A stretch of DNA of 64,000 nucleotides, from NCBI GenBank assembly GCA_033064195.1, contig JARBJD010000130.1, positions 62,001-126,000 of the forward strand, given 5' to 3'. Under the pieces are notes generated by a model that saw only the letters and a program-made list of their open reading frames with translations, was not told where the DNA came from and did not search any database. Below, one piece after another: positions 1-33,420 of the stretch; position 1 is the stretch's first letter, and the number at the start of each line of letters is the position of its first letter. Both the position numbers and the translations under genes were made by a program. The stretch comes from Blattamonas nauphoetae. Taxonomy: Eukaryota > Preaxostyla > Oxymonadida.

Positions 1-59
1 ATTGCACGATCCTTCTTTCGTTCTGCTTTAATGAGTTTTGGAACCTGCGGATGCTCGGC

Positions 60-1020
60 ATCATCACTGTATGCTTCATTTTTTCAATTTCACCTCTTTT
101 TGCCAACTTTTTTGACTTGATCCTGATCGCGCTCCATCTCTGTTCCGTTTCCACTTCTTCGACATTTTATTCCGTTCTCTACTTTCTTCATTATTGATTC
201 ATCTGTTTTCATACTTTTTCTCTCTTATTCTTATTCAGGTGTCACCGTAGTGAACATTTCATCACTTCTCCAATTTTTACATTGTATGTTGCTTATTATC
301 GTTCACAACATCCTTCTTTATTCTCTTCTTCTCTTTGTTTCACTTCCTCTTGTCACCATTTTTCATGTTCACCTCTTTTCCCTCTTTTTAGGTTCGATCT
401 CAGTCATCTTTCCAACTTGGAACTTTCCGGTAATATTGAGTATGTCACTCTCATTCTCTTCTTTCTTTCTTCTGTTTTCTTCCATTTTCATATGTTTTGT
501 TCCTTCTTTTCTTCAGGTATTCTCAGATTGAACAGATCATCGATTGCATCGTTTTTTACCTTGTATGTTTCCGATTATCGCTTTAAACAACTTTCTTTCT
601 TCTCTTCTTTTCTTTCTTCAACTTGTTTTGATTCTCGTTTTCTCACTTTCACCTCTCTTTACAACTTTTTAGGTTCAATCAAGATTGCCGCGGCATCTTT
701 GCACTTTTCCGTCTTCGTCATCATTTCGTTCTTATTCTCTTCTTTCTTTCAGCTTTTCACTTTCATTTTCATCATTTCCGTCTCTTATTCTTTCCTAGAT
801 CATACCGTATTGAACCGATCAACAACTTTCGCAATTTTGATTTGTATGTTGTTTCATCTCTCTTCAAACTTACTTGTTTCTTCTCTTTTTGTTATTTGTT
901 CAATTCTTTTCATCGTCATTTTTTCACGATCATCTCTTTTTCCCTCTTTTTTCACTCTTTCAGAACCATGCTCACATCTCTGCACTTCTCCATGTTTTTG
1001 ATCATTTCACCATGATTTTC
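60..1020 (+). repeat. Diverged tandem repeat, period about 280 bp
   Basis: Two anchor words recur at regular spacing on this pyrimidine-rich strand. TTGTATGTT occurs at about 283, 561 and 842, and a TTCACCTCTTTTT-like word at about 90, 369, 648 and 932. At least three to four units are present, well diverged from one another. Long Phe/Ser-rich open frames across it are a by-product of T-rich composition and I do not call them genes. Confidence 0.7.
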
Positions 1021-1962
1021 ACCTTATTTTAGACTTATTCTCTTCATTTTCATTCCTTATTTCACTTCCTTTTCAACCGTTCTCATTTCATTTTTGTGGT
1101 CACTACTCCGCATCCATTTTCTCATTGTTTATTGAGTTGTTTCACTTCACTCATGTTTGTTTCGCTCAACCTTTTTTCTCAATTACAATGCGCAAATTTC
1201 CACTAATTTACTGACACTCCTGTCTTCCAGGATCTCACACACAACGATCATCTCGTATCTTTTCACTTCATCTCATTTTGATCATTTCACTTGTTTCTTT
1301 CCACTCTTTCTTGTTTTTTAATGTCATTAAAATACGTGATCAGTCTCTGCTCTCATTATTTACATCGGATTTCACGTCATTCTCAAGATCTACATTTCAC
1401 CAGTTTGTATTGAATCTGCCCGTTTCGTTTTAGCTTGTTTCGATCTCTTTTCATCCAATTAAGAGCAAAAACAGTCAAAAGTCAATATCGTGAAGTGCTA
1501 ATAAGCGACAACGGTCGCCAAAATGACTCGTGAGATGTGGAAACTGAGAGGTAAATACGAGCGAATGAAGTGTCAAACGTGGAAGGTGAAATGAGAGAAG
1601 AAAGACGTTGAAATGGTCGGAACTTAGACAAACAGTGAAATGTTAAGAACGAAAAAATGACAAAAAAGTGAAATTTTGAAAGAACTAATGAACCAAAAAT
1701 TCTGAAAATTCAGCCACAGCCTTCTCGAATGGTGAGAACGGAAGGGCGATATGTGTTAATTCGAGAAAAAAGTGATGTGAGGAAAAGGAGTGCGAAAATG
1801 TGACGTGAAAAGGTGTGTGCAAAAACACTATATAAGAACACAAGCCGTGCGGGGACGACTTATGTTCGTTAAAATGCTTGAAATATGAAGTGGTTGAAGC
1901 GAAAATAGCGAAAACTGAAAACTCGTGAAAAAAAGTGTGAAAGTGTTGAACATGAAAGTGAA

Positions 1963-1996
1963 CGTTCGGAGATGCGCCAAAGGGCGTCTCCGAGCG
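1963..1996. other. GC-rich hairpin, 15-bp stem
   Basis: CGTTCGGAGATGCGCC is followed by AAA and then GGGCGTCTCCGAGCG. The two halves pair over about 15 bases with a small A-rich loop and one or two G-T wobbles. It stands out as a GC-rich island in AT-rich DNA. It could be a transcription end signal, a small structured RNA, or chance; no neighbouring gene decides this. Confidence 0.55.
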
Positions 1997-2704
1997 TTTT
2001 GAAGTGCAAGATCGTCATTAGACGATGAAAGCTGACCTGAACATGATAACCGTGAAAGCGTATACCGTTTTTCTAAAATTCGGAAAAATTCAAAAAAATC
2101 ATGGTGGGTCGGATCAAACTTTTTTTTCGAAAGTGTTTTTTCGCGAAAATTTCCCCATCCAAAATGATGAACTAATTATGTGGAGTCATAAAAAATGTGT
2201 TTTAGAGATATAGTGGTTCATAGTAGAGAAATATGAGCATCGACTTTTTCGACCTATTTTGGACCACAGAACGGTACGTAGCGCCACGAATTCCCTACCG
2301 ATTTTCATCGGGATTGTTTTGATCGACGACCGACGTTGTCTCCGAGATTTTAGAATTGTTTTCGATTTTTTTCGAAGTGATTCAACTGTTGGTTTCAATG
2401 GATTTGTGTGAAAATGGAAAAACTCGAAAAATCGATTTTGACCTGAACATTTTTGATCTCATTGTTGACAAGAATCAATTCAAACAACGTTCGGAATCAT
2501 TCAAATCGATTCTGAGCATTTGAAGGTCAGGTGGACCTCTCAAATAATTGCTGATTGTGCAATTGGGGTTTCTGGGAATCCAAATTTGCTTTGAAAGAAC
2601 AACAGAATGATCAGGCCGATTGTTGTGTCAATCGGCATGATGATTTTGCACAGTAGTATCGTCTATACCAACGTGGTTCCCAATTCGTTCTATACACTAC
2701 TTCT

Positions 2705-2795
2705 CTGTTCATTTCTGAACGATCATGTTCATTTCTGAACAATCAAAATACATTTCTGAACAATTATGTTCATTTCTGAATAATTAAAATACAAT
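2705..2795 (+). repeat. Short tandem repeat, about 20-bp period
   Basis: Four copies of CATTTCTGAA(C/T) lie about 20 bases apart, separated by GATCATGTT- or AATCAAAATA-type spacers. The copies alternate between two spacer types. The mirror copy is 30460-30551. Confidence 0.7.
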
Positions 2796-3149
2796 TCAGA
2801 ACTAGTCGAGCTGTAATTTGCCTTTTCAGCATGTGGATCAGGATCATCCCATGATTCCCACAAAATAGAAATGAAGTGTTATACATGGCTGACCTGACTG
2901 GAAATCTCGAAAATCGAGAAATTCGACTGACAGTCACTGACTTGAGTTTTTTTTTAATTATGGGTCGGATCTCGGAGAAATTGAAGTTTTTCCGATGATC
3001 TAGATCTTCCATCTATGAGTAAAAAAGTGATATATTGTCGGTCAAAATAGTCGTAATACCTGTTTTAATGTCTAAATCCTGTAATTTGGCGTTTTTCGAA
3101 TTTAGACCATTTTTGTGGGAGGATCTGCCACTGACTGTCAGTCGTTTTT

Positions 3150-3296
3150 CACTGACATGAGCGTTTTTCTCACTATATAGGGCATTCTTGAAACTAAAAG
3201 TTGAAAAATATCATGGAGGGAAGTGAGAAGAATGTGTGGCCACAACAAGCCAGTCATAATTCACTATAGTTGTCGAGAAAAAGGCTCATGTCAGTG
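3150..3296. repeat. Short inverted repeat, 22-bp arms
   Basis: CACTGACATGAGCGTTTTTC at 3150 is matched in reverse complement at 3275-3296 with one mismatch over 22 bases and a 103-base loop. The word CTCATGTCAGTG at the right arm is also the exact place where the spacer copy of the ABC block starts (about 9113-9128). The motif therefore sits at a duplication boundary. It may be a MITE-like foldback or a recombination junction. The mirror copy is 29959-30105. Confidence 0.7.
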
Positions 3297-4137
3297 TTTT
3301 TTAGGGACTGTCAGTGACTTGACTTTGTCAGTTATGTGTAACTTTATTGATCGCTTTTCAACTTCATATTATTCATTCATACACTTCATACACACTCATT
3401 TTATCTGAATTTTATTACTTTTTCCAACCAAACACCTCAATCGCGAGAAATCGCTGTTTTACATCCCTAACTTTTTATGGATCCTCTATCCGATAGAGGG
3501 CTCCTTTCCTTCTCTTCCTTCTCCTTTGGCTTCCAAATTCCTATATATTTGCTCAAACTGTATTAGGAAATCGAATACTACGCTCATTTTCACCTCTCTC
3601 CAACTGAGATCTTCAAAGAGATGGAGACTCGCTCCTTTGCCAATTTAGTGTCCATCGATCGCTTGAATGTTTGAATACAGATGGTATCACATCGTATATC
3701 CTGTTTTTTCATTCATTTTGTTTTGTAACAACAGTTTCTTCTCATCATCATCTTCAATCTCTCTCACAGCTCGCCGTTCTCTGCCTTCGTCTCGTTCGTT
3801 CCTTTCTCCCTCTCTACGATCGTCTGACACATGCGGTGTCATATTCCTTTTGCGATCATTCGTTTCAAACTGCGGGAATCACACATTGGACAGTTCACGA
3901 TCTTCCACCAATGACTTCTTCCACACTCCGAGCTCATCCGACTACTTTTCCTCTGCAAAACATCCTTATATCGGATAAAACATTCGCTCAATTCGCTGAT
4001 GTCGCCGTGTCTACTCAGCTTTCAGCGTTGACATTCAATCGCCTTTCTGACGCGCCTCTAATCTCGATTCTGAACAAAAAGTCCTTTTTCTTTATCTCCG
4101 TGTGTTCTTAATTTGATTTTTCATCTTTAATGCTGTT
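3297..4137 (+). other. 5' part of the duplicated ABC block (copy A)
   Basis: This region is shared with 9128-9967 and, in reverse complement, with 29118-29958. An open frame at about 3671-4111 is kept in both A and B copies with few changes, but in overlapping frames. It reads as a Ser/Phe/Leu-rich peptide that I do not recognise. It may be an upstream part of the transporter gene, a leader, or not coding. Comparing substitutions by codon position between A and B would tell. Confidence 0.4.
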
Positions 4138-6682
4138 TTGTCAGTTTGTCTTCCCAACTTTCACAACGCAAAGACACTCGTAATCGCAGAAGAAATAGTC
4201 GTGCAACGATACATTGCAGAACTCTCTGAATCGAAATATGTTAAATTAACCTGCAATCTGTTCTCCCCGCTATTCATAGGAATGTCTGTGTTGTTTTATT
4301 GGATCATGGTTTCCAGGTCTCTCTCTACTGAACATCTTCAGTTCGTGTGCTGTTTGACATTGATTTCATTGGTTTCTACGTTCAGAACAGTCTTGTTAAC
4401 GGAGTTTGAATGAACAGATTGGGACGAATTTGGAAGGGCGCAACGGAGTCGCCTTCCAAGGGAGTTATATCCATTCAGCATCATTGTCTGTGCCTTGTGC
4501 CGTATACGGCAACGATCCAATCAATTTTGCGACAGTTGTGATGCCCAACATAGGCTATTTGATGATGATCACGACGATGCCGACCACGACACTTCCGATG
4601 TACCTGGAGGCCCTGCTGATGATTCTTATCGAAACAAATCATCTCTCACCCTTTCTGTATCTTCCAGAAATGGAGGAAGTTGTGGAAATAGCTGAAACAA
4701 GGCTTCCAGAGCCTGCGTATAAATCACAAATTAGAGGAGAAACACACGACGGCATAACATCCTAAGATAAACCACAATCGAACGAAATGAATATAACCGA
4801 ACTCTCCCCACAAGAAACGCTGACGAGACTCCAGTTGAGTCCAATAGCCTTCAGCTGTACAACAAACGCTGACGGACCACCAAAAACACCATTCGAGGGA
4901 ATGTCACTTTACACGCGGAGTATGGTGAAGAGGAACACAACTAGGCGGATCGTGTGTGTACACTGGAGCCAGATTTCAAGATCTTCGCAGCCGGCGATGT
5001 GATAGCGATTGGAGAGAAGGGAGTGAACATGAGTGGAGGACAGAAGGCGAGAATCCAGCTTGCTCGTGCAGTATACTCGGACAAAGACATTTTCATCATC
5101 GATGACGCACTCTCCGCAGTCGATGCTCGTGTTGGGCGATATCTGATGGACGAGTCCATCTGTGGCATGCTGAAGGGTGAGACTGTCATTCTGATGACCA
5201 ACCAGCTACAGTTCCTCGACAGGGCGAAGTGATTGCGTTGGAGAACGGAAGAATCCCAGCACAGTGAACATACGCCGAGAGAAGCGCGCAAGGAGTGAAC
5301 TTTGACGACTTCACCATCAAATCCGACAGAAAAGACGCGAAATAGAAACAGAAGAAGGTCGAAGTCAAAGAAGCGGAGAAGACAGACGATGACAACGCGA
5401 AGCAGATCATTACAGAAGAACAGGAAACAGGCGGGATCAAGTTCATGTCGTTTGGGAAGTATCTTCGCATTCTCATGCCGCTTGACGTCGTGATCCTATT
5501 CTTGCTTCATGATGTGGCCGCCGAAGCTGTCAGCCTCGTGTCCACGTGCTGGTTGGGCAATATCAGCAACCCGATGGCGATGGGAGGGATGGGCTTTTGG
5601 TGGAAGATTGGGGTGGATGGATTTCTAGTGCTGGGTCTTCTGGTTCTGCTGATGCTTCGTTCTGCGATGACTGCAGGAGCAGTTGGGCGTTCGGCTCGCG
5701 TGGACCACAACAAGTTGATGGACCACGTGATGAGCTGTGCGTCGTCGTTCTTCGACACGACGCCGATGGGCCGCATTCATGTCGATTGCTCGTTCTCTTG
5801 TTCTGTCGCACTTTACGGAAACGATTTAGGGAGAAGGTCTGACGACGATCCGAAGCCATGGACGGGAAGAGGAATGGAAGGACAAGTTCTTTGAGGTGAA
5901 CGACGACATGTCAGTGCCGTTCATGCTGTTCCGGGAGGGCCAGAAGTGGGCGTCGCTGTATGCGTCTGTGATCTCGTCGTTCGAGCGAGTTGACTTCTCA
6001 TCGCTGAAACTGCCTCAGGAACCGTCGACGCACGAAGTGGAAGTGCCTGAAACTAGGCCAGCGAAGGGAGACTGCCGATTTGAAGACGTACAAAACAATT
6101 ACCGTCCTGGTCTGCCGTTCGTGCTGAAGGGGGTGATCTTCGGCATCACAGGAGGGGAGACGATTGGGGTGTGTGGGCGGACAGGAGCAGGAAAGTCGTC
6201 GCTTCTGTTAGTTCTGTTCCGACTTGTTGAGCTGGACCCGAAGTTGGCGCTGATGATGATTAACATGAAGACAGGATTCCCAGTTTATGCAGACCCGAAC
6301 GAAGAGCCAAACATCGGACGACCGGATTTCGATAGTGGTGGAAATGATTGAGATGCGGGAGATTGTGGCGGGTCTTCCGCTTGGGCTGGACTCACATGTG
6401 GCGGAGGGAGGAAGCAACTTCTCAACTGGCCAGCGACAACTGTTGTGTGTTAGGCGAGCGATTCTGAACAATAGCCGAGTGGTTGTGATGGACGAAGTGA
6501 CAGCGAATGTTGATGTGGATACAGACGCGAAGATTCAGCGGACGATTCGGGAGAAGTTCGGAGACAAGACAGTGTTTGTTATTGCTCATCATTTGAACAC
6601 GATCATGGATTTGTCGCGGATTTTGGTCACTTCACCATACAGTCTTATCGAGATCTCCATTCACACCAAAACGACGACATGA
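4122..6682 (+). pseudogene. ABCC/MRP-type ABC transporter, broken (copy A)
   Basis: Fragments in several frames keep the order of a full ABCC exporter: membrane helices (about 4138-4640), the first nucleotide-binding domain, a second membrane domain (about 5445-5760) and the second nucleotide-binding domain. The first nucleotide-binding domain keeps the signature SGGQKARIQLARA (about 5032), the Walker B FIIDDALSAVD (about 5092) and an H-loop-like Gln, but I find no Walker A for it. The second has Walker [10 protein letters not shown] (about 6178), the signature STGQRQL and Walker [13 protein letters not shown] (about 6480). At about 2.5 kb it is far shorter than the usual 4 kb and lies in at least five frames, so it is a pseudogene. 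Known members export conjugates and other solutes across membranes. The second half is GC-richer than the first. Confidence 0.88.
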
Positions 6683-6828
6683 AGGTTAAACTGAGATAAT
6701 AAACAATAATATTGCCTACTGTTGATTGATTGTGCTGTAGTGGAGATGCGGAAGTTGATCTGACCCAAAGTGAAAGGTCAAAAAAGTGACTGACTACTGA
6801 CACGCCTTTTCTCCTAGTCACCCATGTA

Positions 6829-8676
6829 CAGTCCTTTTCAAAAAGATGTTCAACTGGTTCAAAAAGATGGCTGATCGACACGATACCCTCGCCCACAATA
6901 CTGATTTTCCTCTTCTGACCACTTTCCACCCCTGACTCATCTCTCGTTTTAGAATGCCTGCATGGACAGATAGTGACAAAAAAGATGGTCTGTCTTATTT
7001 TTCGCCAAAAATGTGCACATTTTGTCGAGATTTTCAGCATTTTCATTTTTTTCAACATTTTGCTCTCATCCTTCTTCTTTCTTTCAAATAGAACAAGATC
7101 CTTCCTCCAATTGAGATCTTATTTGGTGAATCGCTGTTTTATCACTGATAAAGTCATGCTTTATTAAATTTCGATCTCGTCCATTCAGCCGTGGCAATTT
7201 GGAATGTATGTCAATTGTTTGTTCTTTTCTCATACTTCTCTATTGCACGCCCTGTATGTAGACAGTTCCCCGTATCCTTTCATCCGTTCTAATGTGACAT
7301 CAAACTCGCAATCTGTTGATGAACTCTCGTTCTGACGCTCTCTCGTCATCGTCCTTAATCTGGTTTTCACATGTTTTCTCTTTTATGCTCATCATTTAAT
7401 ATAGATCTCTCAACTAATTTTGGCAAAACAATCAGTTGTCCAATACTTGCATGCTTGTATCCGCAAAGCTCTCAATACACTGCCAATATCCCTCATAGAA
7501 CTTCATTTCACAATCCAACACGGTCAGTCTCTTCGTGTATTCTCTTCACTCATTTTCATCGCTCTTACACTCCCTGCTTGTTTCAAAACAGTCACATCAC
7601 GAGATCCTCATCCAGATCTTTAGATGCACACTTGATGTTTGATGTAACTTGTACTTTTTCTGACAAAAATTATCATTCATCTTCATTTTTTATGTCAAAA
7701 AGGGAAAATAAAATCGATACGGTTCAACATTTCGATTCAATACCTTCTGATCTCTTTTCTCCTTGAAACATTTTTTCTTGTCGATCCAATTTCTTGGTCC
7801 CAACACAGACACTCATTTCCATCTTGATTTAACTTTATTTGCGTTTCTGACTTTTCAAATGACAAGATCATCTTCTTTCGTGAAGTGACAGTTGTTGAAT
7901 TGATATGTCATAAAACTGCAAGAAAAATATAGAGAGGAGATTAATCAAAGAGAATGAACGAGACTAACCGTGAAAGCAAGCATGAATATGGATACTTGGA
8001 ATGATATGACTTATTTTCAATGTCGAGATGGGAACACGAGGAATACTATAGAACACACAAAGCATGATCGAGATGACTGCATGTAATGATGAGAATAAAC
8101 CAAGAAACCTAATGAAAACGCGATAGTGGCTATACGATGAAAGATGGGCACGACGGGTGTTAGAAAAGTCCAGAACAGTCTGCAGTCCGTTTAAAAACTA
8201 CCGGACCATCTGGATCTGCGCCGAACAGACGAATCGAGGATGGGAACCTCTGTGAATAGAGCAAACAATTGACATACATTCCAAATTGCCACGGCTGAAT
8301 GGACGAGATCGAAATTTAATAAAGCATGACTTTATCAGTGATAAAACAGCGATTCACCAAATAAGATCTCAATTGGAGGAAGGATCTTGTTCTATTTGAA
8401 AGAAAGAAGAAGGATGAGAGCAAAATGTTGAAAAAAATGAAAATGCTGAAAATCTCGACAAAATGTGCACATTTTTGGCGAAAAATAAGACAGACCATCT
8501 TTTTTGTCACTATCTGTCCATGCAGGCATTCTAAAACGAGAGATGAGTCAGGGGTGGAAAGTGGTCAGAAGAGGAAAATCAGTATTGTGGGCGAGGGTAT
8601 CGTGTCGATCAGCCATCTTTTTGAAACAGTTGATCACATTTTTGAACCAGTTGAACATCTTTTTTGAAAAGGACTG
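6829..8676. mobile_element. Tc1/mariner-like non-autonomous foldback element (left arm)
   Basis: Terminal inverted repeats of 393 bp (6829-7221) and about 415 bp (8262-8676) start with CAGTCCTTTTCAAAAAG and end in its complement. The element is flanked by TA on both sides (6827-6828 and 8677-8678), as in Tc1/mariner insertions. The spacer copy of the ABC block reads CACCCATGTA then TAAATTC at 13112-13130, where this copy reads CACCCATGTA then CAGTCC. That fixes the left boundary exactly. The right terminal repeat is about 21 bases longer because of one internal insertion or deletion. The 1.04-kb centre (7222-8261) has no transposase; the open frame at 7371-7766 shows no recognisable domain. 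Confidence 0.85.
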
Positions 8677-8936
8677 TAAAAAGCCACAAATATCAACAAT
8701 TGCCACATTATACTGGATTACCGTCACAGAACTGTCGGTTGAACTTCGAATTTCCCTCATTATCCTCTTCTTCAAGGAAATGAGAAAAGATCTCTGACCC
8801 ACAAACAAAAAGCCCGAAGTCATGACAGTCAACGCACTTTCTAAAAAATAGGTCTGTCAAGTCAAGTCAGACAGGTATATTGAAATCAAGATTGATTCGA
8901 CATAAAAAATATCATGAGTGTGGATTGGCGTTCGAA

Positions 8937-9116
8937 CTACGGGATGACATTGAAGAGTGGCATGGATGGAATTGAAGATTTTTCTGATTGATCATCTTTC
9001 TTTTTGGGTCGTTTTGGAGTCCTGGTTTGGTTATCATCAGTTTCAGCTGTGGGGGGCTCCTTTTCTGGCGTTGTTGGTTGGCTTCTTTTCAGTTTATTAA
9101 CAATAACTTTTGGCTC
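8937..9116 (-). pseudogene. 3' fragment of the CR-type NTPase/OTU gene
   Basis: This is the last 60 codons, including the stop, of the gene that is complete at 19021-24321, copied as part of the palindrome arm. It ends abruptly at the inner palindrome breakpoint, where the ABC block copy B starts with GGCTCATGTCAGTG. It cannot make the NTPase or the protease domain. Confidence 0.9.
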
Positions 9117-9967
9117 ATGTCAGTGTTTTTTAGGGACTGTCAGTGACTTGACTTTGTCAGTTATGTGTAACTTTTTTGATCGCTTTTTATTCTCACGTTA
9201 TTGCTTCCTTCACTTCATACACACTCATTTTATCTAAATTTTGTTTCTTTTTTCTTTAGAACACCTGAATCGTGAGAAATCGCTGTTTTACATGCCTAAC
9301 TTTTTTATGGATCCTCTATCCGATGGAAGGCTCCTTTCCTTCTCTTCCTTCTCCTTCGACTTCTAATTCCTGTTTGTTTGAACAAACAGTCTTAAGAAAG
9401 GGAGTATCATGTTCATTTAACCTCCTTCCAACTGAGATCTTCAAAGAGGTGGAAACTCGCTCCTTTGCCAATTTAGTGTTCATCGATCGCTTGTATGTGT
9501 GAATACAGATTGTATCACATCCTATATCCTGTTTTTTCATTCATTTTGTTTTGTACCAACTGTTTCTTCTCATCATCATCTTCAATCTCTCTCACAGCTC
9601 GCCGTTCTCTGCCTTCGTCTCGTTCGTTCCTTTCTCCCTCTCTACGATCGTCTGACACATGCGGTGTCATATTCCTTTTGCGATCTTTTGTTTCAAACTG
9701 CGGGAATCACACGTTAGACAGTTCACGATCATCCACCAATGACTTCTTCCACCCTCCGAGCTCTTCCGACAACTTTTCCTCTGCAAAACTCTCTTATATC
9801 TGATGAAACAACCGCTCAATTCACTGATGTCGCCGTATCTACTCAGCTTTTTTCTTTGACATTCAATCGCCTTTCTGACGCGCCTCTAATCTCGATTCTG
9901 AACAAAAAGTCCTTTTTCTTTATCTCCGTGTGTTCTTTATTTGCTTTTTTCATCTTTAATGCTGTTT
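9113..9967 (+). other. 5' part of the duplicated ABC block (copy B)
   Basis: Diverged direct copy of about 3283-4137 with scattered substitutions and small insertions or deletions, clearly older than the palindrome. It starts exactly at the CTCATGTCAGTG word that forms an inverted-repeat arm in copy A. A Ser/Phe-rich open frame at 9495-9803 and an overlapping one at 9499-9717 correspond to those in copy A. No function is recognised. Confidence 0.5.
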
Positions 9968-12900: not shown

Positions 12901-12975
12901 AATGCGATTGAATCTAATCACTTCACAATACCATCTGATCGAGATCTCCATTCACACAAAAACGACGACATGAAG
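9968..12975 (+). pseudogene. ABCC/MRP-type ABC transporter, broken composite (copy B)
   Basis: The first part (to about 10560) matches copy A's membrane and linker segment. Then a charged linker and a second first-half transporter follow: membrane domain 11033-11683, Walker A GEVGCGKSS at 11869-11895 and signature CGGQKARIQ at about 12142. A second membrane domain (12240-12797) comes next and is cut by TGA at 12797. The end-of-membrane-domain motif (GYLM...MP...LEA) occurs twice, at about 10384 and 11600, so two transporters are spliced together. The second nucleotide-binding domain is absent: the sequence jumps to the same 3' tail as copy A at about 12910. It is not a working gene in this form. 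Confidence 0.85.
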
Positions 12976-13355
12976 GTTAAACCGAGATTAAAATCAATAA
13001 TATTGTCTACTGTTGATTCATAGTGCTGAAATGGAGAATGTGAAGTTGATCTGACCCAAAGTGAAATGTCAAAAAAGTCACTGACTACTGACACGGCTTT
13101 TTGCCTAGTCACCCATGTATAAATTCAACAGCACAAAATTCAGTTTTACGTTCATTTCGGATGAATCAACAGCGAAAAGGATGAATCGATATCGATCAAG
13201 AGAAAGAAAACTTTGACGGTCCGATCAACTCACGTCACCATCAAATCGTTCTCTTCTGATTACATTTATCACAAAACAGAGAAACTGGAACGACATAAAT
13301 GTGGTTGAAATAAATGTGAGATCGCAAATACACCTGATTAGCCAAGTGATGGCTG
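12976..13355. other. Tail of ABC block copy B and short gap
   Basis: To about 13122 this is the non-coding tail shared with copy A (6683-6828), ending CACCCATGTA. The rest, to 13355, is unique AT-rich DNA in which I see nothing. The tail's end serves as the empty site for the mariner-like insertion. Confidence 0.6.
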
Positions 13356-16965: not shown

Positions 16966-16989
16966 TAATTCCTTGTTGTGCCAGCTTTT

Positions 16990-22000: not shown

Positions 22001-24321
22001 CACCGCACCAACCAAATGATGTTCGTCCTGATGCGTCATCGCAGCCATTGCCAGATCGTCTGAATGATCCATCAAGGATTAGAGAAGCGCACCTTCTGTG
22101 GGTTGAAGGCTACATACTGAGCTATCAGGAACTCGGCACATATCGCTTCAAACCAATCAAGCTTGCAAAGCAGCCATTCCACTCATTACGGTTTGATGAA
22201 CCAGGTACTGATGTTACAGATATCACGCACAATGCACAATACATGCTTCCTTCTGTGACAAATGACCGTTTCACCCCTCTTGATTTCATCACGGAGACAG
22301 GGACAGCTTTTATCAGTTCCAAACGCGTCGAATATGAATATTTTTGGCAATGGCTGAATCGCAAGAATCCTCTCACTGGAATGGTTGTTGCACTTCAGGC
22401 AGATGAAATTGAACTGACCAAAAGGATCCAAAAATGTGAAGATGAGAACGAGAAATCACGCCTGACATGCCTTATCGCGAAAGTACTCCTTCTGAGATCA
22501 CGACTCTATATCCAGTCTGGAGCTCTCACAACCGCTCAGTGGTTCTTCGAACGGTCGAAGCAGCACATGGTGCTGAATGACACGGCTGAGGTGGAGTATG
22601 AACTGATTCTAGCTCGTAGCAACGGTCGAGAGATCAGTCCTCGTGGATCTGACGAACTGAACAGAATTATCGTGAATGCAAGAAATTGCTTCGGAATCAA
22701 CTGGGAACAGTGGATTCAGGAAGGACAGAACCTTCCAATCCTTTTGAATCCGTCTTATCACAGACTCCAATACCATCTCAAACAGGTTCAAGATCATGTG
22801 AACACATTGAGATCGCGTCTGAAATCGATAGTTGATCCTGGTCCCATGACGAATGACCCCCGAAGAGCAACGATGGAGGAGGCTCTTCCACAGACGCTGA
22901 AAGAAGGATTGACTTTGCAGTTGCTGATCGCTTGGAAGACGGGCTATCGGGATCAGCTCGAATTCTTTCAGAATGAACTAAATTCAACCTTTCAGAACGA
23001 AGGAGATAAGACGATCAAAGCCATGACCACACCATTCAAGTCTCAAAAGAGGCAAATTGAAAGGCTCGACATTGCAGTTGTGACCAAAGCGATCAATGAC
23101 ATCCTCACTACCACACAAAATCACTTTAACACTTTGCATGTTCTTGAAAGTACAAACGGGGTGGAAATGATGATTGGAGACCATTCTTCCATTTCTATCA
23201 CTCCATCAATTCACAGGAGCATCCAACAAGACATTCACACGACTACCCAGCTCCTGATTGACAGAATTTCTGCGATCAAAACTGCTTCCTGTCAGAAATT
23301 AAAGCATACAGGCAACACAGTAATGACCAACGCTTTAGAGCAGATGGCTGAGGAACTGAACCCTATTCTGATAACAACTTCCAATCATGATGCTGATATG
23401 GAGGCTGTCGAGGACACCTCATCTAATGTCATGCTGACTGAAGAATCGGAGGAAGAGCCGAGTCTTCCTGAAGAACCAAGAGCCAAATTCAATGAGAATT
23501 CCTTCGGGAAGGGGAAGAGAGCAAACAAAACTGTCTCGACGCAGTACGACACAACACAGACGATTTATCATTGCTCCTACTTCGAATCGCAAGAAGATGA
23601 TAAGGAGTCTAATGATATAAAATACTTCAGAAAGCATCTTGGAGCTGCAAATGTTGTGAATACCAACGGAGATGGAAATTGCTGGCTCTATGCAATTTAT
23701 GATCAACTAACATATGATGAACTGGTAAGTGCTGGTTTTCTTCTGCTAACTCATGACAAATGCAGTAACGACGCTATGTGTTACTTCAAATCTCAAGTCA
23801 GATCTCGCATGGTCCACACTATGCGCGGCAACATGGATGGAGTTGTGACATTCTTAACCGGTTTAAATTCAGAGACACCAGAGGACTATATCGATAGACA
23901 ACTGAAAGATGGACAATGGGGTGGGGATGCCGAGTTATCTACTGTGTGCAGAGTCATTCAGAGACAAATTGCCGTTTACTACCCAAATGACAACCCTGTT
24001 TTTGTGTATGCACCTGATCCAACTCTCCCTACAGTCGACATCGGACACTGCGGTGGGAACCATTTTGTCAGTCTACATAGCGTACCAATCATCAATAAAA
24101 CAGGCTTTAAAAAATTACATACAAAAGTACAGACACTAACGAAGCCAAAAGTTATTGTTAATAAACTGAAAAGAAGCCAACCAACAACGCCAGAAAAGGA
24201 GCCCCCCACAGCTGAAACTGATGATAACCAAACCAGGACTCCAAAACGACCCAAAAAGAAAGATGATCAATCAGAAAAATCTTCAATTCCATCCATGCCA
24301 CTCTTCAATGTCATCCCGTAG
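19021..24321 (+). CDS. CR (Crinkler/RHS)-type P-loop NTPase with C-terminal OTU-like cysteine protease
   Basis: Two short introns join three open segments: 19753-19786 (34 nt, GTTTGT...TTTTAG) and 20188-20228 (41 nt, GTATCT...CAACAG). The product is about 1741 residues. An N-terminal helical part is followed by Walker A GTPGIGKS (residues 221-228), then ARRGEPSFIFRN and LLTSPNKERW (about 395), which follow the order seen in Crinkler/RHS-type NTPases. A possible zinc site (CAYC...HFC) lies near 835-852. The C-terminus has NGDGNCWLYAI, with likely catalytic Cys 1529, and GGNHFVSLHS with His 1656. That is the spacing of an OTU deubiquitinase-like fold. No signal peptide is seen. In the known family, NTPases of this type carry variable C-terminal effector domains, so a role in attacking or remodelling ubiquitinated targets is an inference. 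The final 59 codons lie inside the palindrome arm. The frame is open throughout and the gene looks whole. Confidence 0.72.
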
Positions 24322-24592
24322 TTCGAACGCCAATCCACACTCATGATATTTTTTATGTCGAATCAATCTTGATTTCAATATACCTGTCTGACTTGACTTG
24401 ACAGACCTATTTTTTAGAAAGTGCGTTGACTGTCATGACTTCGGGCTTTTTGTTTGTGGGTCAGAGATCTTTTCTCATTTCCTTGAAGAAGAGGATAATG
24501 AGGGAAATTCGAAGTTCAACCGACAGTTCTGTGACGGTAATCCAGTATAATGTGGCAATTGTTGATATTTGTGGCTTTTTACAGTCCTTTTC

Positions 24593-26427
24593 AAAAAGAT
24601 GTTCAACTGGTTCAAAAATGTGATCAACTGTTTCAAAAAGATGGCTGATCGACACGATACCCTCGCCCACAATACTGATTTTCCTCTTCTGACCACTTTC
24701 CACCCCTGACTCATCTCTCGTTTTAGAATGCCTGCATGGACAGATAGTGACAAAAAAGATGGTCTGTCTTATTTTTCGCCAAAAATGTGCACATTTTGTC
24801 GAGATTTTCAGCATTTTCATTTTTTTCAACATTTTGCTCTCATCCTTCTTCTTTCTTTCAAATAGAACAAGATCCTTCCTCCAATTGAGATCTTATTTGG
24901 TGAATCGCTGTTTTATCACTGATAAAGTCATGCTTTATTAAATTTCGATCTCGTCCATTCAGCCGTGGCAATTTGGAATGTATGTCAATTGTTTGTTCTT
25001 TTCTCATACTTCTCTATTGCACGCCCTGTATGTAGACAGTTCCCCGTATCCTTTCATCCGTTCTAATGTGACATCAAACTCGCAATCTGTTGATGAACTC
25101 TCGTTCTGACGCTCTCTCGTCATCGTCCTTAATCTGGTTTTCACATGTTTTCTCTTTTATGCTCATCATTTAATATAGATCTCTCAACTAATTTTGGCAA
25201 AACAATCAGTTGTCCAATACTTGCATGCTTGTATCCGCAAAGCTCTCAATACACTGCCAATATCCCTCATAGAACTTCATTTCACAATCCAACACGGTCA
25301 GTCTCTTCGTGTATTCTCTTCACTCATTTTCATCGCTCTTACACTCCCTGCTTGTTTCAAAACAGTCACATCACGAGATCCTCATCCAGATCTTTAGATG
25401 CACACTTGATGTTTGATGTAACTTGTACTTTTTCTGACAAAAATTATCATTCATCTTCATTTTTTATGTCAAAAGGGAAAATAAAATCGATACGGTTCAA
25501 CATTTCGATTCAATACCTTCTGATCTCTTTTCTCCTTGAAACATTTTTTCTTGTCGATCCAATTTCTTGGTCCCAACACAGACACTCATTTCCATCTTGA
25601 TTTAACTTTATTTGCGTTTCTGACTTTTCAAATGACAAGATCATCTTCTTTCGTGAAGTGACAGTTGTTGAATTGATATGTCATAAAACTGCAAGAAAAA
25701 TATAGAGAGGAGATTAATCAAAGAGAATGAACGAGACTAACCGTGAAAGCAAGCATGAATATGGATACTTGGAATGATATGACTTATTTTCAATGTCGAG
25801 ATGGGAACACGAGGAATACTATAGAACACACAAAGCATGATCGAGATGACTGCATGTAATGATGAGAATAAACCAAGAAACCTAATGAAAACGCGATAGT
25901 GGCTATACGATGAAAGATGGGCACGACGGGTGTTAGAAAAGTCCAGAACAGTCTGCAGTCCGTTTAAAAACTACCGGACCATCTGGATCTGCGCCGAACA
26001 GACGAATCGAGGATGGGAACCTCTGTGAATAGAGCAAACAATTGACATACATTCCAAATTGCCACGGCTGAATGGACGAGATCGAAATTTAATAAAGCAT
26101 GACTTTATCAGTGATAAAACAGCGATTCACCAAATAAGATCTCAATTGGAGGAAGGATCTTGTTCTATTTGAAAGAAAGAAGAAGGATGAGAGCAAAATG
26201 TTGAAAAAAATGAAAATGCTGAAAATCTCGACAAAATGTGCACATTTTTGGCGAAAAATAAGACAGACCATCTTTTTTGTCACTATCTGTCCATGCAGGC
26301 ATTCTAAAACGAGAGATGAGTCAGGGGTGGAAAGTGGTCAGAAGAGGAAAATCAGTATTGTGGGCGAGGGTATCGTGTCGATCAGCCATCTTTTTGAACC
26401 AGTTGAACATCTTTTTGAAAAGGACTG
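24593..26427. mobile_element. Tc1/mariner-like non-autonomous foldback element (right arm)
   Basis: Second copy of the element at 6829-8676, flanked by TA at 24591-24592 and 26428-26429. As expected for a palindrome, the longer terminal repeat lies on the CR-gene side and the shorter on the ABC side. However, the centre (24996-26034) runs in the same direction as the centre of the left copy instead of being mirrored. Recombination between the two terminal repeats of one copy would give this. The centres differ by one base in a poly-A run. Confidence 0.85.
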
Positions 26428-26573
26428 TACATGGGTGACTAGGAGAAAAGGCGTGTCAGTAGTCAGTCACTTTTTTGACCTTTCACTTTGGGTCAGATCA
26501 ACTTCCGCATCTCCACTACAGCACAATCAATCAACAGTAGGCAATATTATTGTTTATTATCTCAGTTTAACCT

Positions 26574-29134
26574 TCATGTCGTCGTTTTGGTGTGAATGGA
26601 GATCTCGATAAGACTGTATGGTGAAGTGACCAAAATCCGCGACAAATCCATGATCGTGTTCAAATGATGAGCAATAACAAACACTGTCTTGTCTCCGAAC
26701 TTCTCCCGAATCGTCCGCTGAATCTTCGCGTCTGTATCCACATCAACATTCGCTGTCACTTCGTCCATCACAACCACTCGGCTATTGTTCAGAATCGCTC
26801 GCCTAACACACAACAGTTGTCGCTGGCCAGTTGAGAAGTTGCTTCCTCCCTCCGCCACATGTGAGTCCAGCCCAAGCGGAAGACCCGCCACAATCTCCCG
26901 CATCTCAATCATTTCCACCACTATCGAAATCCGGTCGTCCGATGTTTGGCTCTTCGTTCGGGTCTGCATAAACTGGGAATCCTGTCTTCATGTTAATCAT
27001 CATCAGCGCCAACTTCGGGTCCAGCTCAACAAGTCGGAACAGAACTAACAGAAGCGACGACTTTCCTGCTCCTGTCCGCCCACACACCCCAATCGTCTCC
27101 CCTCCTGTGATGCCGAAGATCACCCCTTCAGCACGAACGGCAGACCAGGACGGTAATTGTTTTGTACGTCTTCAAATCGGCAGTCTCCCTTCGCTGGCCT
27201 AGTTTCAGGCACTTCCACTTCGTGCGTCGACGGTTCCTGAGGCAGTTTCAGCGATGAGAAGTCAACTCGCTCGAACGACGAGATCACAGACGCATACAGC
27301 GACGCCCACTTCTGGCCCTCCCGGAACAGCATGAACGGCACTGACATGTCGTCGTTCACCTCAAAGAACTTGTCCTTCCATTCCTCTTCCCGTCCATGGC
27401 TTCGGATCGTCGTCAGACCTTCTCCCTAAATCGTTTCCGTAAAGTGCGACAGAACAAGAGAACGAGCAATCGACATGAATGCGGCCCATCGGCGTCGTGT
27501 CGAAGAACGACGACGCACAGCTCATCACGTGGTCCATCAACTTGTTGTGGTCCACGCGAGCCGAACGCCCAACTGCTCCTGCAGTCATCGCAGAACGAAG
27601 CATCAGCAGAACCAGAAGACCCAGCACTAGAAATCCATCCACCCCAATCTTCCACCAAAAGCCCATCCCTCCCATCGCCATCGGGTTGCTGATATTGCCC
27701 AACCAGCACGTGGACACGAGGCTGACAGCTTCGGCGGCCACATCATGAAGCAAGAATAGGATCACGACGTCAAGCGGCATGAGAATGCGAAGATACTTCC
27801 CAAACGACATGAACTTGATCCCGCCTGTTTCCTGTTCTTCTGTAATGATCTGCTTCGCGTTGTCATCGTCTGTCTTCTCCGCTTCTTTGACTTCGACCTT
27901 CTTCTGTTTCTATTTCGCGTCTTTTCTGTCGGATTTGATGGTGAAGTCGTCAAAGTTCACTCCTTGCGCGCTTCTCTCGGCGTATGTTCACTGTGCTGGG
28001 ATTCTTCCGTTCTCCAACGCAATCACTTCGCCCTGTCGAGGAACTGTAGCTGGTTGGTCATCAGAATGACAGTCTCACCCTTCAGCATGCCACAGATGGA
28101 CTCGTCCATCAGATATCGCCCAACACGAGCATCGACTGCGGAGAGTGCGTCATCGATGATGAAAATGTCTTTGTCCGAGTATACTGCACGAGCAAGCTGG
28201 ATTCTCGCCTTCTGTCCTCCACTCATGTTCACTCCTTCTCTCCAATCGCTATCACATCGCCGGCTGCGAAGATCTTGAAATCTGGCTCCAGTGTACACAC
28301 ACGATCCGCCTAGTTGTGTTCCTCTTCACCATACTCCGCGTGTAAAGTGACATTCCCTCGAATGGTGTTTTTGGTGGTCCGTCAGCGTTTGTTGTACAGC
28401 TGAAGGCTATTGGACTCAACTGGAGTCTCGTCAGCGTTTCTTGTGGGGAGAGTTCGGTTATATTCATTTCGTTCGATTGTGGTTTATCTTAGGATGTTAT
28501 GCCGTCGTGTGTTTCTCCTCTAATTTGTGATTTATACGCAGGCTCTGGAAGCCTTGTTTCAGCTATTTCCACAACTTCCTCCATTTCTGGAAGATACAGA
28601 AAGGGTGAGAGATGATTTGTTTCGATAAGAATCATCAGCAGGGCCTCCAGGTACATCGGAAGTGTCGTGGTCGGCATCGTCGTGATCATCATCAAATAGC
28701 CTATGTTGGGCATCACAACTGTCGCAAAATTGATTGGATCGTTGCCGTATACGGCACAAGGCACAGACAATGATGCTGAATGGATATAACTCCCTTGGAA
28801 GGCGACTCCGTTGCGCCCTTCCAAATTCGTCCCAATCTGTTCATTCAAACTCCGTTAACAAGACTGTTCTGAACGTAGAAACCAATGAAATCAATGTCAA
28901 ACAGCACACGAACTGAAGATGTTCAGTAGAGAGAGACCTGGAAACCATGATCCAATAAAACAACACAGACATTCCTATGAATAGCGGGGAGAACAGATTG
29001 CAGGTTAATTTAACATATTTCGATTCAGAGAGTTCTGCAATGTATCGTTGCACGACTATTTCTTCTGCGATTACGAGTGTCTTTGCGTTGTGAAAGTTGG
29101 GAAGACAAACTGACAAAACAGCATTAAAGATGAA
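26574..29134 (-). pseudogene. ABCC/MRP-type ABC transporter, broken (copy A', mirror)
   Basis: Reverse-complement copy of the broken transporter at 4122-6682, in the right palindrome arm. All fragments keep the same lengths and frame breaks, apart from single-base changes near 28290. The damage therefore predates the palindrome. The same motifs are visible: Walker [17 protein letters not shown], Walker [13 protein letters not shown], and SGGQKARIQLARA with FIIDDALSAVD. Confidence 0.88.
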
Positions 29135-29958
29135 AAAATCAAATTAAGAACACACGGAGATAAAGAAAAAGGACTTTTTGTTCAGAATCGAGATTAGAGG
29201 CGCGTCAGAAAGGCGATTGAATGTCAACGCTGAAAGCTGAGTAGACACGGCGACATCAGCGAATTGAGCGAATGTTTTATCCGATATAAGGATGTTTTGC
29301 AGAGGAAAAGTAGTCGGATGAGCTCGGAGTGTGGAAGAAGTCATTGGTGGAAGATCGTGAACTGTCCAATGTGTGATTCCCGCAGTTTGAAACGAATGAT
29401 CGCAAAAGGAATATGACACCGCATGTGTCAGACGATCGTAGAGAGGGAGAAAGGAACGAACGAGACGAAGGCAGAGAACGGCGAGCTGTGAGAGAGATTG
29501 AAGATGATGATGAGAAGAAACTGTTGTTACAAAACAAAATGAATGAAAAAACAGGATATACGATGTGATACCATCTGTATTCAAACATTCAAGCGATCGA
29601 TGGACACTAAATTGGCAAAGGAGCGAGTCTCCATCTCTTTGAAGATCTCAGTTGGAGAGAGGTGAAAATGAGCGTAGTATTCGATTTCCTAATACAGTTT
29701 GAGCAAATATATAGGAATTTGAAGCCAAAGGAGAAGGAAGAGAAGGAAAGGAGCCCTCTATCGGATAGAGGATCCATAAAAAAGTTAGGGATGTAAAACA
29801 GCGATTTCTCGCGATTGAGGTGTTTGGTTGGAAAAAGTAATAAAATTCAGATAAAATGAGTGTGTATGAAGTGTATGAATGAATAATATGAAGTTGAAAA
29901 GCGATCAATAAAGTTACACATAACTGACAAAGTCAAGTCACTGACAGTCCCTAAAAAA

Positions 29959-30105
29959 CACTGACATGAGCCTTTTTCTCGACAACTATAGTGAATTATG
30001 ACTGGCTTGTTGTGGCCACACATTCTTCTCACTTCCCTCCATGATATTTTTCAACTTTTAGTTTCAAGAATGCCCTATATAGTGAGAAAAACGCTCATGT
30101 CAGTG
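29959..30105. repeat. Mirror copy of the 22-bp-arm inverted repeat
   Basis: Reverse complement of 3150-3296 in the right arm. Confidence 0.7.
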
Positions 30106-30459
30106 AAAAACGACTGACAGTCAGTGGCAGATCCTCCCACAAAAATGGTCTAAATTCGAAAAACGCCAAATTACAGGATTTAGACATTAAAACAGGTATT
30201 ACGACTATTTTGACCGACAATATATCACTTTTTTACTCATAGATGGAAGATCTAGATCATCGGAAAAACTTCAATTTCTCCGAGATCCGACCCATAATTA
30301 AAAAAAAACTCAAGTCAGTGACTGTCAGTCGAATTTCTCGATTTTCGAGATTTCCAGTCAGGTCAGCCATGTATAACACTTCATTTCTATTTTGTGGGAA
30401 TCATGGGATGATCCTGATCCACATGCTGAAAAGGCAAATTACAGCTCGACTAGTTCTGA

Positions 30460-30551
30460 ATTGTATTTTAATTATTCAGAAATGAACATAATTGTTCAGA
30501 AATGTATTTTGATTGTTCAGAAATGAACATGATCGTTCAGAAATGAACAGA
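30460..30551 (-). repeat. Mirror copy of the 20-bp tandem repeat
   Basis: Reverse complement of 2705-2795 in the right palindrome arm. Confidence 0.7.
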
Positions 30552-31261
30552 GAAGTAGTGTATAGAACGAATTGGGAACCACGTTGGTATAGACGATACT
30601 ACTGTGCAAAATCATCATGCCGATTGACACAACAATCGGCCTGATCATTCTGTTGTTCTTTCAAAGCAAATTTGGATTCCCAGAAACCCCAATTGCACAA
30701 TCAGCAATTATTTGAGAGGTCCACCTGACCTTCAAATGCTCAGAATCGATTTGAATGATTCCGAACGTTGTTTGAATTGATTCTTGTCAACAATGAGATC
30801 AAAAAATGTTCAGGTCAAAATCGATTTTTCGAGTTTTTTCCATTTTTCACACAAATCCATTGAAACCAACAGTTGAATCACTTCGAAAAAAATCGAAAAC
30901 AATTCTAAAATCTCGGAGACAACGTCGGTCGTCGATCAAAACAATCCCGATGAAAATCGGTAGGGAATTCGTGGCGCTACGTACCGTTCTGTGGTCCAAA
31001 ATAGGTCGAAAAAGTCGATGCTCATATTTCTCTACTATGAACCACTATATCTCTAAAACACATTTTTTATGACTCCACATAATTAGTTCATCATTTTGGA
31101 TGGGGAAATTTTCGCGAAAAAACACTTTCGAAAAAAAAGTTTGATCCGACCCACCATGATTTTTTTGAATTTTTCCGAATTTTAGAAAAACGGTATACGC
31201 TTTCACGGTTATCATGTTCAGGTCAGCTTTCATCGTCTAATGACGATCTTGCACTTCAAAA

Positions 31262-31295
31262 CGCTCGGAGACGCCCTTTGGCGCATCTCCGAACG
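31262..31295. other. Mirror copy of the GC-rich hairpin
   Basis: Reverse complement of the hairpin at 1963-1996, unchanged in the right arm. Confidence 0.55.
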
Positions 31296-32239
31296 TTCAC
31301 TTTCATGTTCAACACTTTCACACTTTTTTTCACGAGTTTTCAGTTTTCGCTATTTTCGCTTCAACCACTTCATATTTCAAGCATTTTAACGAACATAAGT
31401 CGTCCCCGCACGGCTTGTGTTCTTATATAGTGTTTTTTGCACACACCTTTTTCACGTCACATTTTCGCACTCCTTTTCCTCACATCACTTTTTTCTCGAA
31501 TTAACACATATCGCCCTTCCGTTCTCACCATTCGAGAAGGCTGTGGCTGAATTTTCAGAATTTTTGGTTCATTAGTTCTTTCAAAATTTCACTTTTTTGT
31601 CATTTTTTCGTTCTTAACATTTCACTGTTTGTCTAAGTTCCGACCATTTCAACGTCTTTCTTCTCTCATTTCACCTTCCACGTTTGACACTTCATTCGCT
31701 CGTATTTACCTCTCAGTTTCCACATCTCACGAGTCATTTTGGCGACCGTTGTCGCTTATTAGCACTTCACGATATTGACTTTTTGACTGTTTTTTGCTCT
31801 TAATTGGATGAAAAGAGATCGAAACAAGCTAAAACGAAACGGGCAGATTCAATACAAACTGGTGAAATGTAGATCTTGAGAATGACGTGAAATCCGATGT
31901 AAATAATGAGAGCAGAGACTGATCACGTATTTTAATGACATTAAAAAACAAGAAAGAGTGGAAAGAAACAAGTGAAATGATCAAAATGAGATGAAGTGAA
32001 AAGATACGAGATGATCGTTGTGTGTGAGATCCTGGAAGACAGGAGTGTCAGTAAATTAGTGGAAATTTGCGCATTGTAATTGAGAAAAAGGTTGAGCGAA
32101 ACAAACATGAGTGAAGTGAAACAACTCAATAAACAATGAGAAAATGGATGCGGAGTAGTGACCACAAAAATGAAATGAGAACGGTTGAAAAGGAAGTGAA
32201 ATAAGGAATGAAAATGAAGAGAATAAGTCTAAAATAAGG

Positions 32240-33200
32240 TGAAAATCATGGTGAAATGATCAAAAACATGGAGAAGTGCAGAGATGTGAGCATGGTTCTG
32301 AAAGAGTGAAAAAAGAGGGAAAAAGAGATGATCGTGAAAAAATGACGATGAAAAGAATTGAACAAATAACAAAAAGAGAAGAAACAAGTAAGTTTGAAGA
32401 GAGATGAAACAACATACAAATCAAAATTGCGAAAGTTGTTGATCGGTTCAATACGGTATGATCTAGGAAAGAATAAGAGACGGAAATGATGAAAATGAAA
32501 GTGAAAAGCTGAAAGAAAGAAGAGAATAAGAACGAAATGATGACGAAGACGGAAAAGTGCAAAGATGCCGCGGCAATCTTGATTGAACCTAAAAAGTTGT
32601 AAAGAGAGGTGAAAGTGAGAAAACGAGAATCAAAACAAGTTGAAGAAAGAAAAGAAGAGAAGAAAGAAAGTTGTTTAAAGCGATAATCGGAAACATACAA
32701 GGTAAAAAACGATGCAATCGATGATCTGTTCAATCTGAGAATACCTGAAGAAAAGAAGGAACAAAACATATGAAAATGGAAGAAAACAGAAGAAAGAAAG
32801 AAGAGAATGAGAGTGACATACTCAATATTACCGGAAAGTTCCAAGTTGGAAAGATGACTGAGATCGAACCTAAAAAGAGGGGAAAAGAGGTGAACATGAA
32901 AAAATGGTGACAAGAGGAAGTGAAACAAAGAGAAGAAGAGAATAAAGAAGGATGTTGTGAACGATAATAAGCAACATACAATGTAAAAATTGGAGAAGTG
33001 ATGAAATGTTCACTACGGTGACACCTGAATAAGAATAAGAGAGAAAAAGTATGAAAACAGATGAATCAATAATGAAGAAAGTAGAGAACGGAATAAAATG
33101 TCGAAGAAGTGGAAACGGAACAGAGATGGAGCGCGATCAGGATCAAGTCAAAAAAGTTGGCAAAAAGAGGTGAAATTGAAAAAATGAAGCATACAGTGAT
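32240..33200 (-). repeat. Mirror copy of the 280-bp tandem repeat
   Basis: This is the reverse-complement counterpart of 60-1020 in the right palindrome arm, with the same anchor words and spacing. It differs from the left copy by a few homopolymer length changes. Confidence 0.7.
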
Positions 33201-33420
33201 GATGCCGAGCATCCGCAGGTTCCAAAACTCATTAAAGCAGAACGAAAGAAGGATCGTGCAATTCGGATCATTCCCCATATTTTGACAAATTTCCTTGAAA
33301 TCGCAAATAGGCTCTTCTTGACATTGTCGGTTGTAGAATATGTTGGTAAAAAAGAAAGAAAGTGATTGAACATAATTTCATTGTTTCTAAAATTGTTTTG
33401 ACTTTTTTATTTTGTATAAA

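Follow-up and report, generated by a model that had tools for sequence, protein, structure and literature searches.

Fold-back inverted duplications of yeast are, in the excerpted account of PMC10622511, primed by fold-back at nearby inverted repeats and formed via a dicentric chromosome. The palindrome described here, from the oxymonad Blattamonas nauphoetae, is likewise an inverted duplication, but it has a 15-kb spacer and two unrelated joins. With the human Y palindromes, e.g. P8 (excerpts of PMC6790999), it shares large, spaced arms of very high identity; unlike them, it shows no sign of long-term conversion in the one assembly at hand, and no complete gene was recognised in its arms. Like the Maverick/Polinton-type endogenous elements of protists, as far as the excerpted text of PMC10120064 describes them, the arms carry the end of a comparable element with a PolB-like gene, although the palindrome is not that element's own terminal repeat and its outer edge cuts the PolB-like gene. 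Non-recurrent repeat-region rearrangements resemble it in having an inverted copy near the source, non-recurrent ends, a repeat-rich setting and 2-5 bp of microhomology at a join; in contrast to these, only one of the two joins here has clear microhomology, and the case is known from one assembly, its mechanism being unobserved. The event belongs to a known, ordinary kind of genome rearrangement. In the excerpts returned by a literature search there was nothing on this locus or on oxymonad palindromes, and the main text of the genome paper has no words beginning palindrom, inverted, maverick or transpos.

Anatomy of the palindrome

The window, 64,000 nucleotides of contig JARBJD010000130.1 (positions 62,001 to 126,000), had been described in an initial annotation as holding a giant inverted palindrome with a spacer of about 15 kb, and this was borne out by BLAST of the window against itself and then of contig positions 2001-146000 and 2001-195981 against themselves (Table 1). 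The left arm had rightly been taken as cut by the window edge, making the arms a minimum: it extends 1,396 bases further, to contig 60605. Since it outruns the window, the right arm ends at 34658 and not, as proposed, at 33262. The inner edges exist, at 9115 and 24143 instead of 9116 and 24146. The left arm measures 10,511 and the right arm 10,516 bases, and the outer flanks differ from each other, so that two near-identical inverted copies have different flanks on both sides, as in an inverted segmental duplication. With the palindrome at 60.6-96.7 kb in a contig of 196 kb, a chromosome end is rejected; neither this nor an amplicon structure, as had been suggested, finds support in a locus well inside the contig with unlike outer flanks.

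Aligned base by base as three segments, the flipped loop being turned over first, the arms show 0 substitutions in ~10.5 kb; this is an upper estimate of identity, because true differences between arms so alike can be lost in read correction and polishing. The match cannot be due to chance, and full identity extends to the very edges on both sides. As had been noted, the differences are then single-base length changes and nothing else, although they number 17 and not about ten: 15 in the outer 8.22 kb (11 of which shorten the left arm), 2 in the turned-over element and 0 in the inner 439 bp. All except two of the 17 fall in single-base runs of at least 4, the two in shorter runs.

Table 1. Features of the palindrome (window positions unless marked as contig)
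Feature	Position	Strand	Basis
Left arm (read as the copy)	contig 60605-71115 = window -1395..9115	+	Self-BLAST, base-by-base alignment
Right arm (read as the donor), mirror of left arm	contig 86143-96658 = window 24143..34658	-	Self-BLAST, alignment, frames through both edges
Spacer, 15.0 kb	9116..24142	.	Holds most of OTU-domain gene, ABC-transporter repeat (truncated) and further dispersed repeats
End of Maverick-like element (long terminal inverted repeat family); mirror ~30554-33262	1..2702	+	Same family as C257 terminal repeats
6.3-kb Maverick-like remnant: end and part of PolB-like gene	30553..36826	+	Collinear with C257 element across 34658
ABC-transporter-like frame-broken region, left arm; mirror in right arm up to 29972	3283..6682	+	Pfam PF00005, PF00664
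1,848-bp element, ~0.4-kb terminal inverted repeats, TA on both sides	6829..8676	+	Self-BLAST, alignment, fetched dispersed copies
Right-arm counterpart of TA-flanked element: interior inverted between unmoved ends	24582..26427	.	Alignment
Inner join of copy: 4-bp overlap GGCT, OTU gene tail / truncated ABC repeat	9112..9115	+	Sequence comparison at join
ABC-transporter repeat in spacer, 5' part cut off at join	9112..12799	+	Comparison with arm copy, Pfam
1,383-aa open frame, OTU protease domain	20170..24321	+	Frame and domain search

Genes and elements of the arms

In the frame-broken ABC-transporter region PF00005 and PF00664 are matched on different broken frames, of which two out of four pass the curated Pfam cut-off, and the ABC repeat of the spacer matches the copy in the arm at 90.7-90.9% identity over 1.44 kb. 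The right arm includes the last ~60 codons of the OTU frame, and the left arm carries them detached from the rest of the gene. No gene in the duplicated stretch was recognised as complete, so the duplication is without evident function. The tRNA and Rfam scans of the window gave no matches. A SufD-SufS fusion agrees with B. nauphoetae as the probable host.

The relative of the Maverick-like remnant on contig C257 is a 22.9-kb element whose 3.1-kb terminal inverted repeats are 97.4% identical. It has a 1,468-aa frame with DFNSLYPS and, further on, GDTDS; the first motif C pattern tried on this frame gave no match, no Pfam or PDB match was obtained, and NCBIfam returned nothing above cut-off. 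PDB searches with two frames of the element yielded nothing at E <= 1, its rve match is weak and below cut-off (E=0.012, Pfam), and no capsid gene was identified in it. In a protein search with the 625-aa PolB-like frame, 0 of 4,025 candidates reached E <= 0.001.

The loop that the initial annotation had seen as flipped is the small TA-flanked element. Compared as a mirror image, its two copies differ by 273 mismatches and 114 gaps; once one of them is turned over, the alignment has no mismatch, 2 one-base changes and two gaps of 21 bp, the latter a reflection of the asymmetric ends. In both arms the asymmetric 21-bp end unit flanks the same TA from the same side, the interior alone being reversed, which rules out independent insertion of the element in opposite directions. 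The left-arm interior has the direction found in five of six fetched full-length dispersed copies with asymmetric ends (eight dispersed copies were fetched out of a longer list that also has, e.g., those on C81, at 96%, and on C179 and C135, at 79-87%). The TA-flanked insert is itself young, because six dispersed copies differ from the arms by just 0-2 substitutions in ~1.67 kb. Judged from the copy on contig C347, which carries the same end unit on both sides, the terminal repeats seem to recombine with each other elsewhere, and we suggest that ~0.4 kb of repeat may suffice to turn the interior over in place. No transposase was identified in the 1,848-bp element, and a 151-aa frame in its right-arm copy has no Pfam match.

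Donor, copy and the joins

Which arm came first? The edges of the arms show, on the evidence of their sequence, the right arm to be the donor and the left arm the copy. The right arm is assigned as donor because the OTU-protease frame (20170-24321) and the PolB-like frame (33818-35695) run unbroken through its two edges, at 24143 and 34658 respectively. The C257 element is collinear with the right-arm side across 34658, and an OTU paralogue on contig C240 (67%) spans the inner-edge site (query 7104-7848 of window 16500-24800). The left arm is assigned as copy because a DDE transposon and an ABC-transporter repeat are truncated by the joins at its two edges, relatives of both running on elsewhere: a DDE relative on contig C61 (91%) has a different continuation past the outer join, and the ABC repeat runs uninterrupted through the inner-join site, e.g. 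on contig C468 (81%, query 280-2096 of window 2600-9400). One arm has the ancestral junctions and the other the new ones, again as in an inverted segmental duplication. The joins, which are those of the assembly, differ in their overlap: the outer one (contig 60605), where the DDE transposon meets the PolB-like gene, has no clear overlap and ~3 extra T, and the 4 bp at the inner one would be found by chance at roughly 1-2% by our own arithmetic, which is weak evidence for a replicative mechanism.

Proposed origin of the palindrome

The assembly displays directly the anatomy, the polarity, two non-homologous joins and the absence of substitutions. We propose that a recent inverted segmental duplication, or templated insertion, quite probably best explains the palindrome; a recent inverted duplication was among the readings first suggested, and our results support it and add a polarity. 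A 10.5-kb source (window 24143-34658), comprising the OTU gene tail, the small TA-flanked element, the frame-broken ABC-transporter copy and the Maverick-like end, would have been copied and inserted reversed ~15 kb upstream, between the DDE transposon and the ABC-transporter repeat, both cut at the joins. As to the mechanism, we lean towards break repair with two template switches aided by microhomology, of the MMBIR type, while end-joining of a broken 10.5-kb fragment into a break may be the true course with a somewhat smaller, still considerable probability. Later, most simply, recombination between the ~0.4-kb terminal repeats would have turned the element interior over in the right arm. 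The duplication would be recent, judging by the 0 substitutions between the arms. Since both donor junctions are still on the same arm, the spacer of this molecule has not been inverted by a net crossover of the two arms.

We consider it quite unlikely that chimeric Nanopore reads or an assembler misjoin brought one locus into the contig twice, the second time reversed. The B. nauphoetae assembly was made with Canu from Nanopore reads of DNA sheared at ~20 kb and polished with Nanopolish and Illumina/Pilon, and the one-base run-length changes between the arms are expected of a Nanopore consensus; in the same direction, the far arm of the palindrome on contig C165 (below) lies where that contig ends and is the shorter one at 33 of 34 indels, resembling a tail that was poorly polished. 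However, an overlap of 0-4 bp at the joins is too short for a misjoin by an overlap assembler, and two separate chimeric joins around the same 10.5 kb would be needed. The assembly fold-back raised in the initial annotation would have no 15-kb spacer and would mirror the element interior, which here is turned over in one arm; with four different flanks and joins of 0-4 bp, it is improbable.

An older palindrome in which gene conversion maintains the identity of the arms, in the manner of mammalian Y chromosomes, would fit the complete identity to both edges, and the apparent recombination of the small element's terminal repeats elsewhere also speaks for it. Yet the element interior runs opposite ways in the two arms, which implies that recent conversion did not pass through the element; the donor junctions are unexchanged, the insert is young, and nothing requires age. 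Arm-to-arm conversion, which had also been suggested, is not needed, and we regard it as highly improbable. A single giant mobile element, Maverick-like or of another kind, with the arms as its terminal inverted repeats is hardly conceivable, and a transposon with 10-kb terminal repeats can be ruled out: although a Maverick-like end is present in each arm, and although parts of the arm occur as dispersed repeats and its inner part is not wholly unique, the arm edges cut the PolB-like gene, the OTU gene, the DDE transposon and the ABC repeat, the stretch 2600-7232 has a 100% match at the two arms only (among scored matches, 40 of 755 candidates), and the terminal repeats proper to the family stop at window 2702 and 30553, so that they do not coincide with the arm edges, the arms running ~6.4 kb beyond.

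Other inverted copies were seen in the genome. Contig C165 holds a second palindrome, with arms of at least 6.2 kb and a spacer of at most 19.9 kb, and contigs C58 and C95 hold older inverted pairs of a gene family, at 72-93%. All three contigs are chance finds, fetched since their matches looked inverted, and give no rate.

What does the proposed inverted segmental duplication mean for the organism? No gene is changed by it in an obvious way. It is a doubtful and tentative suggestion that large, widely spaced inverted duplications arise again and again in the mobile-element-rich regions of this genome, and that inverted template switching may be a main source of its new gene arrangements. Donor and copy can be named, as can the parent sequences at each join, and the palindrome would be a clean example, in a little-studied gut-flagellate eukaryote, of break repair building a palindrome.

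Palindrome anatomy and arm identity

The locus looks like a real and recent inverted segmental duplication, in which both the donor (the source copy) and the newly inserted copy can be identified. Self-comparison of the window showed that positions 1-9115 match 24143-33262 in inverted orientation, and with the neighbouring contig pieces added the match runs from position 60605 of contig C36 on the left to contig position 96658 (window 34658) on the right. The initial annotation had reported the inverted match, had taken the arms as a minimum because the left one is cut by the window edge, and had described one flipped loop; all of this was borne out, the loop being a 1.85-kb element whose interior is reversed between the arms. 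The wider comparison covered C36 (195,981 bases; the genome has 88,311,006 bases in 837 contigs) from base 2001 on, and the window corresponds to its bases 62001-126000. The arms measure 10,511 (left) and 10,516 bases (right), and the spacer between them 15,027 bases.

The arms were aligned as three segments: the outer 8.22 kb, the small element turned over, and the inner 439 bases. Across this alignment there are no substitutions, and the few mismatches reported by BLAST probably reflect gap placement and the ends of the element. Only one-base changes in run length were found: 15 in the outer segment (the left arm being the shortened one in 11), two in the element and none in the inner segment. 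About ten single-base length changes had been annotated initially; their kind stands, and the count is corrected to 17, of which 15 fall in runs of four or more. Since reads of both arms can correct each other during assembly, the identity of the arms may be overstated.

Coordinates of features in and around the palindrome (window positions unless a contig or contig piece is named)
Feature	Position	Remark
PolB-like gene start and Maverick-like element end	to 2702	left arm, outermost
Stretch shared with dispersed ABC-transporter repeat	inward of 2702	left arm
Frame-broken ABC-like region	about 3283-6682	left arm; Pfam matches on separate frames
Small 1.85-kb element	6829-8676	left arm
OTU-protease gene, about last 60 codons and downstream part		left arm, innermost; OTU match of the gene, E=1.1e-7
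DDE transposon frame	7511-8554 of contig piece L009	join at L009 8605
OTU-domain gene	19021-24321	
Maverick-like remnant, 6.3 kb	30553-36826	in the right arm and past its outer edge
20-bp minisatellite arrays	36825-38987	both directions
Second Maverick-like element, 17.1 kb	C36 41566-58659	window -20434..-3341
PB1 domain frame	49296-50120	E=8.5e-7
Cysteine-rich 303-aa frame	50702-51613	84-bp unit x6.9, 97% match

Polarity and proposed origin of the probable duplication

Frames cross both edges of the right arm. At the inner edge the OTU frame 20170-24321 passes unbroken through 24143, and an OTU paralogue on contig C240 (67%) aligns across the same place (query 7104-7848); at the outer edge the frame 33818-35695 passes through 34658, across which the Maverick-like element of contig C257 is also collinear. 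The left arm has joins at both edges and is therefore the copy, with the right arm as its donor. At the outer join a DDE transposon (DDE_Tnp_4, E=1.5e-15) is cut about 50 bases past the end of its frame, and its relative on contig C61 (91%) has a different continuation beyond this point. Of the six T that stand in a row here, the relative on C61 and the sequence on the PolB side explain roughly three, and about three are extra. At the inner join the OTU tail abuts the ABC repeat of the spacer, which lacks its 5' part; other copies, such as that on contig C468 (81%, query 280-2096), carry this part without interruption. GGCT is common to both sides of the join, a 4-bp overlap. In content, the repeat segment preceding the DDE transposon overlaps with the ABC repeat of the spacer, yet their bases differ; the two therefore stem from different repeat copies, and the site of insertion has probably lost some sequence.

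Two routes would give this anatomy, the first being slightly the more likely. In a replicative route, repair of a break would have involved two template switches, one from the DDE transposon to 34658 and one from 24143 into the ABC repeat of the spacer; in the other route, end joining would have captured a broken fragment. The overlap at the inner join leans towards template switching; the outer join, where T are in excess and a clear overlap is missing, leans towards capture. Because both donor junctions are still on one arm, there has been no net crossover between the arms inverting the spacer. For B. nauphoetae, PMC10703272 describes a Canu assembly of Nanopore reads, with the DNA sheared to about 20 kb and with polishing by Nanopolish and Pilon; if this is the assembly analysed here, its reads are of a size that can cross an arm. 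An artefact of the fold-back type is opposed by the 15-kb spacer, by four flanks that are all different, by the slight or absent overlap at the joins and by the reversed interior of the element, which a fold-back would not yield, so that the evidence speaks for a real structure.

Elements carried by the arms

Ten sequences of the small element were examined, in the two arms and in dispersed copies, and ends were found in nine; the second copy on contig C98 has no recognisable ends. TA lies on both sides in all nine (two arms, seven dispersed copies), and the terminal repeats of the element, about 0.4 kb long, are inverted; one of its ends carries an additional unit of 21 bp. No transposase was recognised, and a 151-aa frame in the element has no Pfam match; the segment is mobile-looking. 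The TA site, and the side of it on which the extra unit lies, are identical in the two arms and only the interior is reversed, which argues for one insertion before the duplication, followed by inversion. Recombination between the terminal repeats would later have inverted the interior, most simply in the right arm. Five of the six asymmetric full-length dispersed copies (C827, C69, C98, C2 and C335) have the interior oriented as in the left arm, and one (C166) as in the right. The seventh, a shortened 1.70-kb copy (C347:11109-12815, L043), bears this unit twice, once at each end, which may reflect recombination of one element end with the other. Over about 1.67 kb, the six dispersed copies show 0-2 substitutions relative to the arms, and thus the element also spread recently. 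The 0.2-kb stretch 24374-24581, between the OTU gene and the element, recurs at 97% on contigs C5 and C479, so the inner part of the arm is not wholly unique. These matches (C5:157406-157614 and C479:280386-280589) both end at the start of the element in the window and may represent its empty site.

The family of window 6-2702 is represented by many copies, with at least 47 matches from the 40 candidates scored out of 1,121. On C257 it forms the 3.1-kb terminal repeats, 97.4% identical, of a 22.9-kb element. Its 1,468-aa frame, without a match in Pfam, NCBIfam or PDB, contains DFNSLYPS and GDTDS, which we take to be PolB motifs; another frame matches an integrase (rve) weakly, with E=0.012 and below the cut-off, and one gives a clear Peptidase_S74 match (E=1.9e-12). 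No capsid gene was identified in this element, and it is called Maverick-like for its terminal repeats, its size and these motifs. The Peptidase_S74 (endosialidase chaperone) protein at C257:198595-199491 (L023:5595-6491) resembles phage tail fibres. The minisatellite arrays begin where the C257 match of the PolB-like remnant stops, and the second element on C36 has terminal repeats of only 378 bp (98.4%), beside the long-repeat family.

Neighbouring genes and other inverted pairs

The OTU-domain gene has many diverged relatives across the genome, and a frame upstream in its region contains TGTPGIGKS, P-loop-like by eye and, we presume, reminiscent of Crinkler/RHS proteins. The 303-aa frame is metallothionein-like by eye and had no match in a Pfam search; just upstream of it, the PB1 domain is followed by a cysteine-rich part. 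A SufB frame is present in the genome, and in one further frame a SufBD core is fused to a class-V aminotransferase. The fusion matches the expectation for the SufDSU protein, which PMC10703272 lists for oxymonads; the SufU part was not seen.

Further inverted structures were met by chance rather than in a survey. On contig C165 (L045, L046), arms of at least 6.2 kb match in inverted orientation, 81740-88000 with 114097-107880, with 4 mismatches and 34 gaps. Its far arm runs up to the end of the contig and is shortened by 33 of the 34 indels, so poor polishing of a contig tail may account for this palindrome. C58:23520-31772 and C95:68169-76537 (L030, L031) hold inverted pairs of the OTU gene family, which have 72-93% identity over matched pieces and are older. 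The duplication described here is an event of an already known kind.
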